In this document: piece by piece, positions 8,487 to 62,510 of the stretch
Numbering within the stretch: the stretch's first letter is position 1
How the letters are laid out: every line of letters starts with the position of its first letter
Assembly (NCBI GenBank): GCA_013299115.1
Contig: JAAFKA010000008.1
Coordinates: 62,001-126,000 of the forward strand
Length of the DNA: 64,000 nucleotides
From: Cytophagales bacterium
Lineage (GTDB): Bacteria > Bacteroidota > Bacteroidia > Cytophagales > Thermoflexibacteraceae
Reading direction: 5' to 3'
The notes under the pieces: model-generated
The model's input: the letters and a program-made list of their open reading frames with translations, nothing else
Database searches by the model: none
Told to the model about the DNA's origin: nothing
Position numbers and translations under genes: made by a program

Positions 8487-8962
8487 GTTGGTTGGTTTTG
8501 CTACTAAATTTCAACTTGCAAAATAGGCAAAGTTTTAGAAAGTTACTACTGAGGTCGTAAAAATCTTGTTATAGAACTCGGCGTTAATTCAAACGGTTGC
8601 CCTGTAATCATGTTTTTTTACTAATGCCAAAATAGTTGCAACCAAAATGTAAAATTGTTATTTTTCTATAAAGATAACAACTTTGCTATTTTTGGGAAGT
8701 TGCAAAAAAACAATAAATTTGTAAAAATATTATAAATTAAAGCCTTTGGCAGCAGTAATTGGTGTTAAAAACGGAGTTTGTGCTTCAAAATTTTATACAA
8801 CTTTGCAAAAAATAAAGCCACTTAGCCCATCTGAAATGCAGAAGTTGCAAAAATAAGTTTTGCTTTCGGTTTTGAGAAACCGAAAGCACACACCGAAAGC
8901 ACAAAAAAACTTTCGGTTTTGAGAAACCGAAAGCACACACCGAAAGCACATCTTTTTTCTCT
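8487..8962. other. 476-bp intergenic region upstream of hisG
   Basis: No credible coding sequence on either strand. The hisG-proximal part is AT-rich and should hold its promoter, though I see no clean TTG/TAnnTTTG pair. The end near parC carries the palindromic array described at 8862-8950. Confidence 0.6.
8862..8950. repeat. tandem pair of TTTCGGTTTTGAGAAACCGAAA palindromes
   Basis: Two copies of the palindrome (8862-8887 and 8910-8934) are each followed by an identical CACACCGAAAGCACA tail, giving a direct repeat of about 45-48 bp. The stem is CTTTCGGTTT/AAACCGAAAG with loop TGAG. The same palindrome occurs three more times at 18764-18883, so this is a dispersed REP-like family. It lies just past the parC stop. 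Confidence 0.8.
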
Positions 8963-15893: not shown

Positions 15894-16034
15894 CTCACGT
15901 TTCGTGAGGCTATTTCTGTTCCCTACGTTGCACGTAGGGCTATTATTGTTTAACCTCTTCGAGGTTATGTAAATTTTCTTTACAACCCTGAAAGGGTTGA
16001 ACAATAATAGCCTCACGTGCAACGTGGGGAGAGG
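15894..16034. repeat. nested REP-like palindrome cluster
   Basis: In about 140 bp there are CTCACG/CGTGAG (15894-15908), CCCTACGTTGCACGTAGGG (15921-15939), AACCTCTTCGAGGTT (15952-15966) and CAACCCTGAAAGGGTTG (15983-15999). An outer pair, CTATTATTGTTTAACC (15940-15955) with GGTTGAACAATAATAG (15995-16010), brackets the inner hairpins. This layout resembles Bacteroidota REP/BIME-type elements. It ends at the stop codon of the upstream gene. The rest of the 354-bp gap (15681-15893) holds the gltA leader and the terminator at 15825. Confidence 0.7.
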
Positions 16035-18740
16035 TTATCCCACAGGTGCAGCTTTATTTTTTTGCAAATAGGCTTTCAAATCATCGACTTGCAAAATAGG
16101 TTTGGGGTTGCTGAACACAAACCGACAAGGGGCTTGTTTCTTTTGCAAGTATGGTTTTACCAATGCCCTAAATTCCTCTGCTGTATAGACAACTACTTGA
16201 CTATCAGGCAATACAACGACTAATTGGTTGCTTGTTCCTCGCATAAAGCGGAGGTTGATTTGATTGCCAAATGCCAATCTTTGCACAATCGTACCCTTGT
16301 CGCCTGTGATAAAAAATACTTTCAGGTCATTTGTATTTTGGTGCAAATGCTGCAATTCATCGGCTAAGGCAAATTCGGCTGTAACTTCCAAACCATTTGC
16401 TCGGTCTTCGGGTCTGTCCCAGTTATAGATACCAAAATTTTGCAATTTGTAACTTCTCAACAACACAGCTTCGTTTGCCCTTCTGATGTCCTCAACTTTC
16501 CTCTGGGCTGCAAGGGCTGCATCATATTGGCGAATGAGGTCGTTGAGTTGGGTAACTCTCCGCACAAGGGCAGGATTTTGCTTGCCGTTGAGGGTAGCTA
16601 TTTGCTGCTCTGTTTCAGTTTCTTGATAGATTTTGATAGTAAAAGCCACATTGTCGCCATATTGCTTGGTTTCCTCCGAATTTTTTGGTTTGCAATACAA
16701 GTTCAGTTGCCACAAATTGGCATCAACTTTTGCACGAGGTTTCCACAAATAAACCACACTTTCCTCTTCGCTTGGTTTGCCATCTGGTGTTTGTTGTTCT
16801 TGTTTGTTTTTGCGAGCAACACCCAAACTCACAAAAGACTTGCCATCGGGTGCAAATTCGGCTTGCTTAGTCGTTTGATTGACTTGGAAACTGCACAACA
16901 ACTTAAAGTTTTCGGCTACACTCCAAATTTTAATGGTTTGGTCTTTGGCAAAAGTTATCAACTGTTGTCCATCTGCTGAAAAAGTAGCTTTTTGCACAAA
17001 ATTTTGGTGATTTTTCAAAATATTTACCAATTCGCCACCTTTGTAAATGTTTACCGCAGTGCCTACAATACGAGCTTCGTAGGGCATTGTGTTGGTTTTT
17101 TGGTTAGTAACAGTGGCAAAATCTTGCACACTTTTTCTACCTCCAGCTTCTATTAAGGCTATAATTTTGCCCTGCAAATCCCAAATTTTGGTAAAACCAC
17201 CCATATAAGCCACAATTTTGGTGTCGTTATCAGCAAAAGTAACTGCACTAATCACATTGGGGTTATGCCCAAAAGTTTGCAACAATTTTCCTTCTTTCGT
17301 GTCCCAAAGGCTTACCAAACCACCCGCCACCGAAAGCAAATGCTTAGAGTCGGCAGAGAACAAAAGTTGTTTTACTACGTCGGGGTGTCCTTCCAAGTCG
17401 TGTAGCAATTTGCCTTGCGAGTCCCAGAGTTTGGCACCGCCACCTGCTGCCGTAGCCAGCAGTTTTCCGTTTGGCGAGAATTTTACTTCATTTACCTCCG
17501 CAGGGTGTCCGCCTAAAACCACAGGTCGGTAGAGGTCTTGGGTCAATTCTACTTCTCTCCAAGCCCTGTCCAGCACCCAATAATTTTTGGAAGAACGAGG
17601 GTGGTGGTTTTCATCGGCTTTGCCCGCATACTCCCACACAAGGTTTGCAAAAGATTTGGTGGCAGGATTAGTTAAGGTATCAAACCGCAAACGGAAGAAA
17701 TTACGGCTGTCAATGGCACGGTTGCTCTTGCGTTGAATAGTAATTTGCTGTTCGGCATTTTGGGCTGCTTTGACTTGTTCGGCAGCTATGTCGGCTTTTT
17801 CTTTTTCTATTTGCGTTTGGTAATTTTGGCTAAATACACCCAAAGCCGAGTCTATTTTGGCTTGTCGGTCTAAGTTATTTTCTGTATTGGCAATACCCAA
17901 ATATTTCCAATAACCTGATTTTGAGCCTGTTGCAGCAGCCAAATCGGGGCTGTCCGCAGGTGCAGGACTTTGAGCATAAGCAGCCGAAAAAATAGGGAAG
18001 TTGTAAGTCGTTTGGTTATGTTTGTTGGTTTGGTCGTAATAATAAAACCTAAAATCATTGCCCGCCACAAAACTTGCCATTTTTACTTCTATGTTTTTAT
18101 CAGGGGCAATGAAAACAGGATTTTCTTGTTGAAAACCTCTCAACTCAAACATTCCTGCCGACTCAAATTGCTGCGTGATGCCTGCCGAGTCGTAAGTCAT
18201 GTCAATTCCCGATGCCAAAATCTGAGCTGCCTCGTGAAATTCCCGATAATGCAGTTGCACTTTGCCCTCGATAGGTTGGTTGTTTTTGTCCACAAAAGCA
18301 TTTTGCGGAATGTTCAACTTTGTTCCATTCGGCAATTTGATAGTGCCACCAACCTCCGTATCTACTACAAAATGATTGAAAGGCACGTCTGTTTTGCTAA
18401 AAACAGGTTGTACAGGTGTAATATTGGGCAAGTGCAAAGCCATTGGTGTTGGAATTGGCGTTTGGTTGTACCACCAAACGCCGCCCACCATGCCGAGCAA
18501 AACCGTAGCCGCCATAGCCCATTGTGTAGGAGATTTTGCAATTTTACTTTTGAATAAAGCAAACAAATTGCTGGCTTGTTTAGGCATTTCGTCAAGGTTC
18601 TTGTCCAATTTGTCGCCTTGCGTAGCTTGTTTTGCTTTTGCGTCTAAACCAGCCTCTATTTTGCCCCAAAGGTCGTTGTCGGGTTCAAAAGAAGGCAAAT
18701 TGTCAATAGCTTTTCTTAGATTTTTGTCTTTATCTTTCAT
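16035..18740 (-). CDS. membrane anti-sigma-like protein fused to an exported WD40 propeller
   Basis: 901 residues. Residues 1-70 are a soluble, charged N-terminus (FEPDNDLWGKIEAGLD) typical of Bacteroidota anti-sigma factors. One membrane segment lies at about 72-90 (WAMAATVLLGMVGGVWWY). After it comes a domain (~120-240) with GTIKLPNGTKLNIPQNAF and VQLHYREF, often found in Bacteroidota surface proteins, then a charged helical linker (~290-340) and WD40-like blades (~405-700; VNEVKFSPNGKLLATAAGG, KLWDSQGKLLHDLEGHPD, TKIWDLQGK). By topology the propeller is periplasmic. It follows the ECF sigma gene by 188 bp, so it probably holds that sigma factor at the membrane and responds to an envelope signal. 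Regulation by a sigma factor is inferred, not shown. Confidence 0.75.
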   Translation of the reverse strand: MKDKDKNLRKAIDNLPSFEPDNDLWGKIEAGLDAKAKQATQGDKLDKNLDEMPKQASNLFALFKSKIAKSPTQWAMAATVLLGMVGGVWWYNQTPIPTPMALHLPNITPVQPVFSKTDVPFNHFVVDTEVGGTIKLPNGTKLNIPQNAFVDKNNQPIEGKVQLHYREFHEAAQILASGIDMTYDSAGITQQFESAGMFELRGFQQENPVFIAPDKNIEVKMASFVAGNDFRFYYYDQTNKHNQTTYNFPIFSAAYAQSPAPADSPDLAAATGSKSGYWKYLGIANTENNLDRQAKIDSALGVFSQNYQTQIEKEKADIAAEQVKAAQNAEQQITIQRKSNRAIDSRNFFRLRFDTLTNPATKSFANLVWEYAGKADENHHPRSSKNYWVLDRAWREVELTQDLYRPVVLGGHPAEVNEVKFSPNGKLLATAAGGGAKLWDSQGKLLHDLEGHPDVVKQLLFSADSKHLLSVAGGLVSLWDTKEGKLLQTFGHNPNVISAVTFADNDTKIVAYMGGFTKIWDLQGKIIALIEAGGRKSVQDFATVTNQKTNTMPYEARIVGTAVNIYKGGELVNILKNHQNFVQKATFSADGQQLITFAKDQTIKIWSVAENFKLLCSFQVNQTTKQAEFAPDGKSFVSLGVARKNKQEQQTPDGKPSEEESVVYLWKPRAKVDANLWQLNLYCKPKNSEETKQYGDNVAFTIKIYQETETEQQIATLNGKQNPALVRRVTQLNDLIRQYDAALAAQRKVEDIRRANEAVLLRSYKLQNFGIYNWDRPEDRANGLEVTAEFALADELQHLHQNTNDLKVFFITGDKGTIVQRLAFGNQINLRFMRGTSNQLVVVLPDSQVVVYTAEEFRALVKPYLQKKQAPCRFVFSNPKPILQVDDLKAYLQKNKAAPVG

Positions 18741-18763
18741 TTTTTTGAGTATTTTTGTTTGTG

Positions 18764-18883
18764 ATTTCGGTTTCTCAAAACCGAAATGTTACTTGTGCTT
18801 TCGGTTTCTCAAAACCGAAATGTTACTAAAACCACAGGCTAAAGCCTATGTTACATTTACTTTTGGTTTTGAGAAACCAAAAG
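18764..18883. repeat. three TTTCGGTTT-(TGAG/CTCA)-AAACCGAAA palindromes
   Basis: Copies are at 18764-18787, 18798-18820 and 18860-18883 (the last a variant with TTTTGG/CCAAAA). They belong to the same family as 8862-8950. They fill the gap between the sigma and anti-sigma genes, together with short GGACTAAAGTCC-like and AGGCTAAAGCCT palindromes, and could attenuate or process the shared transcript. Confidence 0.75.
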
Positions 18884-18928
18884 CACTACATATTTTTTTG
18901 TGCGGACTAAAGTCCACACTACATGAAG

Positions 18929-19465
18929 CTATTTCAAGGCTTTTTGCAGTAGTTTTTTTGCATGGGACAACTGCGATTTGCTTGTGCCTTCTGCTATTTG
19001 GAGTAAATTGGCAACTTCCTTGTGCGAATAACCTTCTACTTCTATCAACGTAAACACTGCTCTGCACCCATCGGGCAGGTTTCTTATGGCATAGTCTAAA
19101 TCTTCGCCAGTGATGTCGCCTTGCCACGCAGGAGTTTCTTGATTTGCTGCTGTTTCATAAGTTTCATAGTGCCTTTTCCACTTGTTTTTATACAAGGCTT
19201 TTCGTATCACAATGGTTTTGAGCCACGAGCCGAAAGACGACTCTTGTCTAAAAGTGTTTAAATCTGTAAATGCAGCAATAAAAGCCTCTTGCAAGGCATC
19301 ATGTGCATCATCTGCATCAGCCAAAATGCGGTAAGCTACGGTAAACATGGCAGTTTTGTAACTTTCGTATAGTTGGCGTTGTGCAAGACGGTCTTGTTGC
19401 AAGCATCGCTGAATCAGCGTAGGTTCAGGAGTTGTCAAAGTCGGCAGAGGCTGAAGTTTTTCCAC
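18929..19465 (-). CDS. ECF-family RNA polymerase sigma-70 factor
   Basis: 178 residues. Region 2 (~30-90) includes LYESYKTAMFTVAYRIL, DALQEAFIAAF and SFGSWLKTIVIRKA; region 4 (~120-175) includes LPDGCRAVFTLIEVEGYSHKE and the helix-turn-helix VANLLQIAEGTSKSQLSHAK. Both are standard for ECF sigma factors of Bacteroidota. The next gene in the same direction is the membrane anti-sigma/WD40 protein, its likely regulator. The target regulon cannot be read from the window. Confidence 0.93.
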   Translation of the reverse strand: MEKLQPLPTLTTPEPTLIQRCLQQDRLAQRQLYESYKTAMFTVAYRILADADDAHDALQEAFIAAFTDLNTFRQESSFGSWLKTIVIRKALYKNKWKRHYETYETAANQETPAWQGDITGEDLDYAIRNLPDGCRAVFTLIEVEGYSHKEVANLLQIAEGTSKSQLSHAKKLLQKALK

Positions 19466-19710
19466 AAGTTACTTTAATTGTTTGATATAGAGAGTAACAG
19501 AGTGGGCAAAAGGTTGTATGAGGTGAAAAAAAAAATGTAAAAAAAATTATTTTTTTGTATATTTGGAAATACTTTGGCAATCCTCTATAAAAAGTATTGT
19601 GCAAGAAATTACCACAACCCTAACAAAAGTATCTATTTGTTATAAGGAGTTTTGCAGTTCTTTGTCTGAGCAAGCAAAAAATCTTGTTTTGTAAAACAAT
19701 AGTGAATTGC

Positions 19711-24151: not shown

Positions 24152-24218
24152 TTTTAGCAAGTTTTTTCAAAGATGACATCTTTCGAAAAGATGTCATCTT
24201 TAAAAAAACTTGCTAAAA
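24152..24218. repeat. common-tip hairpin H1 (GATGACATC family)
   Basis: Left arm 24152-24183 pairs with the right arm ending at 24218, with one mismatch and one bulge. The inner 33 nt (AAAGATGACATCTTT, CGA, AAAGATGTCATCTTT) are shared with the hairpins at 32934-33008 and 55494-55559, whereas the outer stem TTTTAGCAAGTTTTTT is unique to this site. It lies between the two MFS genes and can act as a terminator of the first or an attenuator of the second. Confidence 0.8.
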
Positions 24219-32872: not shown

Positions 32873-33137
32873 ATTCAAAAAAAATTCGTAGTACAACCTC
32901 CGCCATACTACGAATAAAAAACTTCTTTATTTGGTAGCAACAAAAAGTAGTTGCAAAGATGACATCTTTCTAAAAGATGTCATCTTTGCAACTACTTTTT
33001 GTTACTACTCTCTACCTCATCACCTGCACCCACCCCTTACAACTTTTCCCTTGTGGCGAAGTGAGCAAATAGTAGTACGTGCCAGCCTCTGTGTGGTGTC
33101 CCCAGTCGTTTTGGTAGTTGTCGGAGGAGAAAATAGG
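32873..33137. repeat. ~190-bp direct repeat, right copy (with hairpin insertion)
   Basis: Counterpart of 27880-28073. It includes the 3' flank of the 2565-residue gene and its last ~42 codons. Relative to the left copy it carries 68 extra nt (about 32934-33001), which form the hairpin described next. Confidence 0.85.
32934..33008. repeat. common-tip hairpin H2 (GATGACATC family)
   Basis: Arms 32934-32969 and 32973-33008 pair over 36 nt with one mismatch. The inner AAAGATGACATCTTT/AAAGATGTCATCTTT is the family core; the outer GTAGCAACAAAAAGTAGTTGC is specific to this site. The homologous DNA at 27935/27936 lacks the hairpin. It lies between the convergent toxin and giant PKD genes, 3 nt from the latter's stop. 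Confidence 0.85.
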
Positions 33138-55493: not shown

Positions 55494-55559
55494 CGTTTAA
55501 AAATTGTGTAAAGATGTCATCTTTTTCGAAAGATGACATCTTTACACAATTTTTAAACG
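55494..55559. repeat. common-tip hairpin H3 (GATGACATC family)
   Basis: Arms 55494-55524 and 55529-55559 are perfect 31-nt complements with loop TTCG. The inner AAAGATGTCATCTTT and AAAGATGACATCTTT are shared with H1 and H2; the outer CGTTTAAAAATTGTGT is specific. It stands between the histidine kinase stop (55572) and the glycosyltransferase start (55457). Confidence 0.85.
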
Positions 55560-60410: not shown

Positions 60411-62510
60411 ATGTCAAACTTTTTCGATACGCCTTTAAGTCAAGTGGCTGGTTTGCAAGCTGCAAAAGCTGCTTTGTTGGCAAAAGAGGTAAATATTTTT
60501 ACCTATGGAGATTTGTTGCTCTACTTTCCGTTTCGGTACGAAGACCGCAGCAAGTTTTACACCGTAGCCGAAATTACGGAAGACTACCCTTTTGTGCAGT
60601 TGAAAGGGCATATTTCGTCTATTAGCGTATTGGGCGAAGGCGAAAAAAGGCGAATGACAGCCATTTTTACTGATGGCACAGGTGATGTAGAGTTGGTTTG
60701 GTTTAAAGGTTTGGATTTTGTAGCCAACAAAATAAGAAAAGGCGTAGAATATATTTTGTTTGGTAAACCTACTTTGTTTGGCAAAAGATTCAACATAGCC
60801 CACCCCGAAATGGAGGTTTTTATAGAGGGCAAGGTACAAGAACAGCTTTTTATGCCTCTCTACAACAGCACCGAAAGAATGAAAAAACGGGGCTTAGAGT
60901 CGCGGGGCTTGTCGCAACTTATCAAAAAAATATTGCCTGCTGCTTTGCCCCAACTCCAAGAAAATTTGCCTTTGTATCTGTTAGACAAGTACAAACTAAT
61001 AGGCAAGGCAACGGCAGTGCAGCAAATTCACTTTCCGCAAAGTCCTCGCCACCTGCACCACGCCCAAAGAAGGCTAAAATTTGAGGAACTTTTTTTTGTG
61101 CAAATCAACTTGTTGCAACAGCAAAAGGTGCTGAAGGATAAAAATTTGGGTTTGCCCCTCAAAAATATACCTACTTTGCACAAATTTTATAAAGAACATT
61201 TGCCTTTTGACTTGACTAATGCCCAAAAAAGAGTAATCAAAGAAATTTATGAAGATGTGAAGTCGGGCAAACAAATGAACAGATTGTTGCAGGGAGATGT
61301 GGGCAGTGGCAAAACAATGGTGGCTTTTATTTGTGCGTTGATGGCGGTGGACAACGAGGCTCAGGCTTGCCTGATGGCACCTACCGAAATTTTGGCGGAG
61401 CAGCACCTCAACAGTTTGCGACCTTTTGCCGAAAAATTGGGAATTACCATAGAAAGACTCACAGGGTCGAGCAAGGTAAAAGAAAGAAGGCAAATTCACG
61501 AAACCTTGTTGAGTGGAGAACTCAAAATTTTGGTGGGAACTCATGCTTTGCTGGAGGACGTGGTGCAGTTTAAAAACTTGGCTCTTTGTATCATAGACGA
61601 ACAGCACCGTTTTGGCGTGGCTCAACGTGCCAAATTGTGGGCAAAAAACGCCAATTTTTTTCCTCACGTGCTGGTCATGACGGCTACACCCATTCCGCGT
61701 ACTTTGGCAATGACTGTTTATGGCGACCTCGATGTGTCGGTCATAGACGAATTGCCCGTAGGCAGAAAACCAATCAAAACCGTACACAAATACGATTCGG
61801 CAAGACTCGAAGTCTTTGGTTTTATGCGAAAGGAAATAGAAAAAGGCAGACAAATCTATTTGGTTTATCCTTTAATTGAGGAATCGGAGGCAATGGACTA
61901 CAAAAACCTCATGGACGGCTACGAATCCGTAGCACGTGCTTTTCCTGAATATCCAATTTCGATAGTGCATGGGCAGATGAAACCCGCCGACAAGGATTTC
62001 GAAATGCAACGATTTATGAAGGCAGAAACCAAAATTATGGTCGCAACGACTGTGATAGAGGTAGGCGTAAACGTACCCAATGCTTCGGTTATGGTCATAG
62101 AAAGTGCCGAAAGGTTTGGTTTGTCGCAACTGCACCAGCTGCGTGGTCGTGTGGGGCGGGGAGCCGAGCAGTCGTATTGTGTGCTGATGACAGGGTTCAA
62201 ACTAAGCAAAGACTCCCGCATACGCATAGAAACAATGGTAAAAACAAACAATGGTTTCGAAATTGCCGATATAGACATGAAACTCCGAGGTCCTGGCGAC
62301 ATGACAGGCACACAACAAAGTGGGGTATTGGATTTCAAAATTGCAGATTTAGGTACAGACCAAGCCATTTTGCAGGAGGCAAGAAAATGTGCAGCCGAAA
62401 TTTTGGAGGAAGACGCCGCCTTAGAAAAGCCTGAAAATCAACCCATTCAGTCGTATTTGGCTAATAGAAAAACCAACAACGGAAAAGTTACGTGGAGTTT
62501 GATAAGTTGA
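60411..62510 (+). CDS. recG: ATP-dependent DNA helicase RecG
   Basis: 699 residues from the ATG at 60411 (MSNFFDTPLSQVAGLQ); a TTG eight codons upstream is in frame but lies in the promoter. Wedge/OB domain ~1-170 (LLYFPFRYEDRS, VQLKGHISSI), helicase domain 1 with LLQGDVGSGKTMVA (Walker A) and DEQHRFGVAQR (DEQH box), MTATPIPRTLAMTVYGDLDV, helicase domain 2 with VIEVGVNVPNASVMVIE and QLRGRVGRG. Remodels stalled forks and branched DNA. Convergent with mlaF, 33 bp apart. Confidence 0.97.
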   Translation: MSNFFDTPLSQVAGLQAAKAALLAKEVNIFTYGDLLLYFPFRYEDRSKFYTVAEITEDYPFVQLKGHISSISVLGEGEKRRMTAIFTDGTGDVELVWFKGLDFVANKIRKGVEYILFGKPTLFGKRFNIAHPEMEVFIEGKVQEQLFMPLYNSTERMKKRGLESRGLSQLIKKILPAALPQLQENLPLYLLDKYKLIGKATAVQQIHFPQSPRHLHHAQRRLKFEELFFVQINLLQQQKVLKDKNLGLPLKNIPTLHKFYKEHLPFDLTNAQKRVIKEIYEDVKSGKQMNRLLQGDVGSGKTMVAFICALMAVDNEAQACLMAPTEILAEQHLNSLRPFAEKLGITIERLTGSSKVKERRQIHETLLSGELKILVGTHALLEDVVQFKNLALCIIDEQHRFGVAQRAKLWAKNANFFPHVLVMTATPIPRTLAMTVYGDLDVSVIDELPVGRKPIKTVHKYDSARLEVFGFMRKEIEKGRQIYLVYPLIEESEAMDYKNLMDGYESVARAFPEYPISIVHGQMKPADKDFEMQRFMKAETKIMVATTVIEVGVNVPNASVMVIESAERFGLSQLHQLRGRVGRGAEQSYCVLMTGFKLSKDSRIRIETMVKTNNGFEIADIDMKLRGPGDMTGTQQSGVLDFKIADLGTDQAILQEARKCAAEILEEDAALEKPENQPIQSYLANRKTNNGKVTWSLIS

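Follow-up and report, generated by a model that had tools for sequence, protein, structure and literature searches.

Does the large membrane protein encoded behind an extracytoplasmic function (ECF) sigma factor gene serve as the anti-sigma factor of that sigma, and what is the part of it that lies outside the membrane? The question is raised by a locus in a 64,000-nucleotide (nt) stretch of DNA (the window), positions 62,001 to 126,000 of the forward strand of contig JAAFKA010000008.1, from the GenBank assembly GCA_013299115.1 of a Cytophagales bacterium of the family Thermoflexibacteraceae. On the minus strand of the window, an ECF sigma gene is followed by a 188-nt gap and then by an open reading frame (ORF) of 901 amino acids (aa). 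The two genes probably code for a sigma factor and its membrane-bound anti-sigma factor, the second of which, we infer, binds the first. The envelope sensor of this system appears to belong to a familiar kind, an ECF sigma held by a membrane brake, in a new variant. The pair consists of the following elements.

18929 to 19465, minus strand: gene for an ECF sigma factor of 178 aa with regions 2 and 4 (Pfam and TIGR02937)
18741 to 18928, minus strand: intergenic stretch of 188 nt with dispersed palindromes at 18764-18787 and 18798-18821, a variant at 18860-18883, and two small hairpins
16035 to 18740, minus strand: gene for a putative membrane-bound anti-sigma factor of 901 aa (ORF, Pfam WD40 match, AlphaFold2 model, gene linkage)

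Both ORFs had been called in a first-pass annotation made from the sequence alone, and both are real, judging from the ORF list and their Pfam domain matches. The 178-aa product has the composition of an ECF sigma, Sigma-70 regions 2 and 4 only in about 180 residues: it matches the Pfam families PF04542 (Sigma70_r2; 3.4e-13) and PF08281 (Sigma70_r4_2; 2.4e-13), both above the cut-off, and the NCBIfam model TIGR02937 at 2.1e-22. The 901-aa product, which is encoded with this ECF sigma gene as membrane-bound anti-sigma factors are, starts with two parts that bear directly on the pairing.

18540 to 18740, minus strand: cytoplasmic head, residues 1-67, with PDNDLWGKI at residues 20-28 (family gene linkage, low-confidence model helices)
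18468 to 18527, minus strand: predicted membrane helix, residues 72-91 (hydropathy, charge, and model; 71-91 in AlphaFold2, at low confidence)

The head motif can be written as P-x3-LW-x2-I. The helix has a weak hydropathy on the Kyte-Doolittle scale (1.08) and a clear one on the GES scale (1.68). Three Lys or Arg residues lie in the 15 positions before it and none in the 15 after it, so that the N terminus should be inside and the C terminus, with the propeller described below, outside. The assignment of a cytoplasmic head with one membrane helix is made on hydropathy and charge only, and the GES values and charges support the single helix that had been proposed.

The linkage of the head to sigma genes across relatives is the best evidence that the head would be a sigma-binding domain. 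A profile built from 5 heads and searched in the 13 genomes of the window's family produced 43 matches (some within one gene), with all 13 genomes represented. Thirty of these matches came with loci (4 of them are query rows, and the loci L191 and L203 are one gene; such L, C, and G numbers are our own handles for loci, contigs, and genomes). In 29 of the 30, the head is preceded on the same strand by an ECF ORF, at a spacing of -10 to +386 nt that is 100 nt or less in 22 cases; in the one remaining case, L175, the contig continues upstream for only 173 bases. The window's own genome has 13 ECF matches, 12 of them above the cut-off, and a head of the LW type with a membrane helix stands behind four of these ECF genes, including that of the window. 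The genome's fifth head match (C67:83092-83241) is located 45 nt from an ECF match (C67:83286-83444). Region 4 of the four sigmas shares, by eye, an EGYxHxEIAxxLxIxExTSKSQ-like pattern (one reads HKEVA). Residues 1-400 of the 901-aa protein have no second copy within this genome. As a side observation, two or three head matches fall inside one ORF at L191/L203 (G002:C39) and L192 (G003:C168), which may mean that the sigma-linked head is sometimes tandemly repeated.

A broader count was made on ORFs with a match to the envelope core (see below) under 1e-20, leaving out two fragments of L148 and one ORF of L078. The 80 family ORFs from named genomes comprise 46 forms with head and membrane helix, 31 signal-peptide forms, and 3 cut ones. 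A sigma or sigma-like gene is found upstream of 42 of the 46 (2 have no room and 2 have none), and of none of the 31 signal-peptide forms (3 with no room). In a second set of 41 ORFs that includes the window, the corresponding figures are 12 of 14 (1 with no room, 1 with none; 1 further ORF is cut) and 0 of 26 (3 with no room); seven sequences are common to both sets, and the class limits were set by the analyst. Accordingly, sigma linkage tracks the head and not the envelope core. The two genes could still be unrelated neighbors, with the 901-aa protein an envelope scaffold that carries an incidental N terminus, as might be read from the 188-nt gap filled with dispersed repeats and from the headless members being signal-peptide proteins with no sigma gene found upstream. 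The regularity with which an ECF gene precedes the head, set against its absence ahead of the signal-peptide forms in both sets, makes this very improbable. The architecture and the tight linkage of head and sigma genes in the window's family are computational observations, and the proposed pairing of sigma and anti-sigma is supported through that linkage.

Heads of at least four types were recognized by eye in the family: the LW type; a type with the Hx3Cx2C zinc motif of class I anti-sigma domains (L043-L049); a YLxG type (L053, L070, and L077); and a short basic type, which is that of most propeller-less forms. The window head lacks Hx3Cx2C, which is present in ∼56% of class I anti-sigma domains and is not required for the class (PMC7406223). 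The motif is found in the heads of seven of the 13 distinct WD40-bearing proteins, the window's protein being counted among the 13. Adjacent same-strand genes alone leave the sign of regulation undecided, so the 901-aa protein could act as a FecR-like positive regulator or co-activator of the sigma and not as its inhibitor. This is unlikely, given the zinc anti-sigma motif in seven family members and a Pfam search in which residues 1-400 and 614-901 matched no FecR domain at E values up to 10.

Upstream of six of the zinc-motif WD40 forms are found proteins of 320-342 aa (L043:5023-6048, L044:5526-6551, L045:593-1552, L046:9157-10131, L048:6405-7427, and L049:5033-6022); no sigma or sigma-like gene was found upstream of the seventh, L047. 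The five of these proteins that were scanned (all except that of L044) had no Pfam match, and their TIGR02937 matches were all below the cut-off: 1.2e-4 to 6.7e-4 in three, 0.013 in one, and none in one. Profile comparison related them to ECF sigmas with a probability of 72% and an E value of 3.4e-5. Possibly, these are sigmas of a divergent family whose C terminus carries a long extension.

Outside the membrane, the protein is built around an envelope core in two parts, followed by a small domain.

18021 to 18383, minus strand: first part of a ZU5/GAIN-like envelope core, residues 120-240, with a YREFH...ASGI motif (block means of 86-98 in the predicted local distance difference test, pLDDT)
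16410 to 16469, minus strand: presumed closing hairpin of the core, residues 758-777, with RSYKLQNFGIYNWD at 762-775 (models, fold match, motif)
16113 to 16394, minus strand: C-terminal small beta domain, residues 783-876 (model; weak fold matches, Z of 6 or less, on the homologue L082)

The AlphaFold2 model of the 901-aa protein, made from 56 aligned sequences, has a mean pLDDT of 79.9 and a predicted template modeling score (pTM) of 0.52 and includes a well-modeled envelope domain from approximately residue 120 to 236. In a comparison with 148 related genomes, the full protein found matches in 44, some of them through WD40 repeats only. Many relatives match only residues ∼110-240 and ∼735-870, and these two segments make up a conserved core that recurs in propeller-less proteins, either with a signal peptide (mostly 430-530 aa) or membrane bound (mostly 500-630 aa). 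Among 395 genomes of the phylum, the core was detected in 20, the window's own included, so it is not universal in the phylum. Residues 1-400 and 614-901 matched no Pfam family in the search mentioned above, ZU5 included. In the Pfam scan of the window proteins, the head and the core had no match among the best 25 of 32 families, and the whole protein had no NCBIfam match. Fifty-one family members yielded propeller models only in Pfam (again, the best 25 of 32 families) and three NCBIfam models with one member each, one of which is named “anti-sigma factor” (6.4e-5). The envelope part belongs to a family that is nearly absent from Pfam and NCBIfam and is new here.

The fold of the core was compared on a propeller-less homologue, L082, and not on the window's own core; the model of L082 has a mean pLDDT of 90.8 and a pTM of 0.79. 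Against chains of the PDB, VIA-align ranked ankyrin ZU5 domains first (Z of 9.2-10.2, root mean square deviation [rmsd] of 2.9-3.2, 120-130 residues aligned), together with adhesion-GPCR GAIN domains (8.4-8.9), the NLRP1 FIIND (8.2), and a row from a microtubule doublet (9fqr, 9.2), best Z scores of 7-8 being usual in this program for models without a clear match. Below these come another adhesion GPCR, a GAIN receptor (6.1), and usher domains, which match the C-terminal part at 5.9 or less. The assignment to ZU5/GAIN follows from the agreement of ten of the first eleven VIA-align rows. Foldseek returned nothing under E 0.001 with the same model, and the core profile had no match to PDB sequences at E values up to 10. 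Membership in the ZU5/GAIN/FIIND superfamily is indicated by fold on this homologue only, and not by sequence profile; the envelope core, as modeled on L082, is predicted to resemble these domains.

The matched range of L082 extends from ∼43 to 341 with only ∼125 residues aligned, which suggests that a long insertion precedes the hairpin at 324-341 and that this hairpin completes the domain; in the window's protein, the propeller would be part of the inserted stretch. The family signature of the hairpin is RxFx[VI]xxFG[IV]YNxD, in which R, N, and D are invariant in 51 of 51 rows and G is present in 49. FIIND domains cut themselves before a Ser residue and GAIN domains before Ser or Thr. At the turn that would correspond to the cleavage site, an equivalence taken from the match ranges, this family has Gly (49 of 51 rows) and not a Ser/Thr nucleophile, so canonical self-cleavage is not expected in the core. 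The envelope domain of the first-pass annotation is present; what changes is its outline, since the domain and the hairpin near the C terminus appear to be one ZU5/GAIN-like core, with the small beta domain after it.

The stretch between the two parts of the core contains two further structured elements.

16731 to 17540, minus strand: WD40 propeller, residues 401-670, inserted in the core (Pfam, AlphaFold2, fold match)
16473 to 16574, minus strand: long helix, residues 723-756 (AlphaFold2)

The WD40 family PF00400 is matched at 9.5e-23 in four stretches. The repeated G-beta blades close into a propeller in the model, whose strand order suggests about six blades, and the best 50 rows of its comparison with solved WD40 propellers have Z of 19.9-22.9 and rmsd of 2.8-4.8 over 232-250 aligned residues. 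This fold search, made with the full-length model, was filled by propellers and was uninformative on other parts. The WD40 blades had been placed beyond the envelope domain. They are there and are predicted to be outside, but as an insert within the core and not as a C-terminal tail: the propeller aligns to a stretch that is short in propeller-less members, and it is absent from most of the family members examined. By an own repeat profile, 13 distinct proteins combine the core with at least three WD40 repeats, ten of them with head and helix and three with a signal peptide. Inspection of these last three (L042, L051, and L052) by eye shows a signal peptide and, near the lipobox position, a Cys residue (the residue preceding it is not canonical); the same core and propeller follow, which provides independent support for the placement of the propeller outside. 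Homology and charge together argue computationally for the far side of the membrane, in agreement with the earlier proposal.

In a quick tree of 102 rows (duplicates and members without a C-terminal match dropped), the window's protein is joined to one of the same genus with an SH-like approximate likelihood ratio test (SH-aLRT) value of 99. Presence of WD40 requires at least 4 changes by parsimony on this tree, which has many weak branches; those that are starred force no more than 1 change in the headed WD40 group and 1 in the signal-peptide one. A single origin of the insert was tried on the tree, and the number of gains was not fixed by supported branches. Nine other members have a large middle insert with fewer than three recognized WD40 repeats (L055, L157 [same as L058], L062, L080, L124, L141, L156, L070, and L077). 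The three of them that were scanned gave weak beta-propeller matches in L055 and L070 and not in L077, so that this insert may be a diverged propeller.

Ahead of the propeller lies a segment that is of interest as a possible cleavage site.

17922 to 18017, minus strand: flexible linker, residues 242-273, with FPIFSAAYAQ at 248-257, AYAQ at 17970-17981 (pLDDT mostly below 50)

The linker test parsed 9 of 12 WD40 rows, 7 of 9 large-insert rows, and 50 of 81 short rows. All nine WD40 rows have [AV]-x-A-[QD] in the linker, and eight have A-x-A-Q; shuffled linkers gave means of 0.89 and 0.45, respectively, and never more than 4. The motif occurs in none of the seven large-insert rows and in 1 of the 50 short ones, which have shorter linkers. 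Among all 13 distinct WD40-bearing proteins, without shuffling, A-x-A-Q was found in 11 and [AV]-x-A-[QD] in 13; three pairs of these are closely related, leaving about ten independent proteins, and in L046 and L047 the motif stands earlier in the linker. Signal peptidase is a known site-1 protease of the anti-sigma factors RsiV and RsiP, and AxA is its commonest site (PMC8844934). The AxA-Q/D motif resembles a signal-peptidase site, and such a role is possible. Its position, a whole domain away from the membrane helix, speaks against cleavage there.

In the mechanism that we infer for the 901-aa protein, covering sigma binding, ligand, direction of signaling, and proteolysis, the head in the cytoplasm would hold the sigma factor at the inner membrane. 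The single helix would span the membrane and lead to the ZU5/GAIN-like domain outside. This domain would be closed by a hairpin from far along the chain, the propeller and the long helix being inserted between its two parts. Ligand sensing would fall to the propeller: an envelope protein or peptide bound to it would probably shift the split domain so that the chain becomes accessible to an initial cleavage, either in the AYAQ linker or closer to the membrane, after which release of the sigma factor by site-2 proteolysis would follow. In a more specific version, the system would be a bacterial counterpart of GAIN/FIIND signaling, in which ligand or force acting on the propeller as a handle loosens the ZU5-like domain and signal peptidase cuts the protected AxA-Q, gating sigma release. 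This version is speculative and rather unlikely to hold as a whole; if true, the WD40-bearing members would be a distinct class of sensors, with the general signal peptidase as the site-1 protease. An alternative that deserves serious consideration, even if it is not the favored one, keeps the head as an anti-sigma domain and makes the propeller a static tether to an envelope complex, the signal being read by the core or the C-terminal domain. It agrees with the good prediction of the core fold without a propeller in L082 and with the 80-ORF set, where headed forms with an upstream sigma have fewer than three WD40 repeats in 40 cases versus three or more in 2. The position of the propeller inside the core, and not at its end, favors coupling of the two.

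Several results weigh against the interpretation of the pair as a sigma factor and its anti-sigma factor. The 901-aa protein matches no Pfam or NCBIfam anti-sigma model, and its head is modeled at low confidence (helices 5-13, 24-40, and 44-67 at pLDDT block means of 43-56), so that the AlphaFold2 model does not resolve a sigma-binding fold such as the bundle of three helices plus a fourth that class I domains have. No protease, ligand, or regulon came to light for this protein. The profiles used to detect upstream sigmas were built from sigmas neighboring such proteins, a mild circularity. AxAQ is also present in headless signal-peptide forms (L042, L051, L052, L060, and L095), and the motif need not serve sigma release. 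Finally, the window's genes have a gap of 188 nt that forms a very stable RNA fold and contains a terminator-like site; most pairs of the family differ, 44 of 54 of them lying within -11 to +13 nt (two sequences counted twice).

The three palindromes between the genes had been suggested to tune the ratio of sigma to anti-sigma. They are present: two copies are near-identical 34-mers and the third is a variant, with two further small hairpins seen by eye. The intergenic stretch 18741-18928 folds far better than its shuffles (z of -9.7), and 18700-19700 contains 5 terminator-like sites versus 0.8 in shuffles, one of which, at 18850-18833 in the gap, is on the transcribed strand. For promoter-like sites around the pair, the count did not exceed that of shuffles (2 versus 2.4). 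In spite of the fold and the terminator-like sites, a specific device that sets the ratio is improbable and a role peculiar to this pair is unsupported, because the palindrome is a dispersed genomic repeat. Its form is TTTCGGTTT-N4-AAACCGAAA, often in short arrays (8864-8945 and 18759-18886 in the window); it has 78 strict sites in the genome, including 8864-8890 and 8911-8937 elsewhere in the window, and the 14-mer of its core has 147 genome copies (71 on one strand and 76 on the other) versus 1 for the reversed pattern. The repeat may have pushed the gene pair apart. The strong fold and the terminator-like site at 18850-18833 could still influence the transcript or its translation locally, an effect that would not be special to this system.

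Other repeats were noted in the window. A 47-nt inverted repeat with further nested repeats (15920-16030) lies at the 3′ end of the putative anti-sigma gene. A second dispersed palindrome, around AAAGATGTCATCTTT, has long near-perfect arms at 24152-24218, 32934-33008, and 55494-55559. Between 33000 and 46600, two similar regions contain long arrays in which the repeats measure ∼483 nt, along with tandem repeats of 18 nt; these regions perhaps encode giant repetitive surface proteins. Four neighbor proteins of the pair (DUF3108, citrate synthase, and two more) had self-matches only in the fetched related loci and gave no hint of a regulon.

Membrane-bound class I anti-sigma factors of the RseA, RsiW, RskA, RsiV, and RsiP type have the same plan of a small cytoplasmic head, one helix, and an outside part, with the gene close behind that of an ECF sigma. 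The putative anti-sigma factor of the window differs in a head that has no zinc motif and is not recognized by Pfam and in an outside part in which a WD40 propeller interrupts a ZU5/GAIN-like core. In concept, the nearest published systems are the ECF57 sigmas and PorE. ECF57 sigmas likewise bring WD40-like repeats into an ECF system, but these are in C-terminal extensions of the sigma protein itself (PMC8999054), whereas here a second, membrane-bound protein carries them on the far side of the cell membrane. PorE, from the type IX secretion system, is likewise an envelope protein of the Bacteroidota in which a small beta domain comes after a WD40 propeller predicted to be periplasmic; it is an outer membrane lipoprotein with TPR and OmpA-C domains, described in the available text as part of the secretion system and not as a sigma regulator (PMC7192894). 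A periplasmic WD40 propeller, called unusual in the first-pass annotation as the sensing part of an anti-sigma factor, is less so as regards location alone with this precedent in the phylum, itself predicted by sequence and modeling (PMC7192894). The searches made in the open-license literature turned up no description of an anti-sigma factor that has a WD40 domain in its outside part. The predicted fold of the L082 core, apparently including its last hairpin, is shared with the ZU5, FIIND, and GAIN domains of ankyrin, NLRP1, and adhesion GPCRs and with bacterial ZU5 autopeptidases (PMC3482391). The window's family differs in having Gly in place of the nucleophile at the presumed scissile turn and no Pfam ZU5 sequence match.

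Class I anti-sigma domains are located near only 6% of the ECF genes in Bacteroidetes versus 32% on average, according to a published survey (PMC7406223). The core family supplies many candidate ECF partners that are unnamed in the current domain libraries. In it, a single outside module, into which a WD40 propeller is optionally inserted, is combined with heads of several dissimilar types, most of which stand next to a sigma or sigma-like gene; the family may also connect ECF signaling with the fold seen in domains of ankyrin, NLRP1, and adhesion GPCRs.

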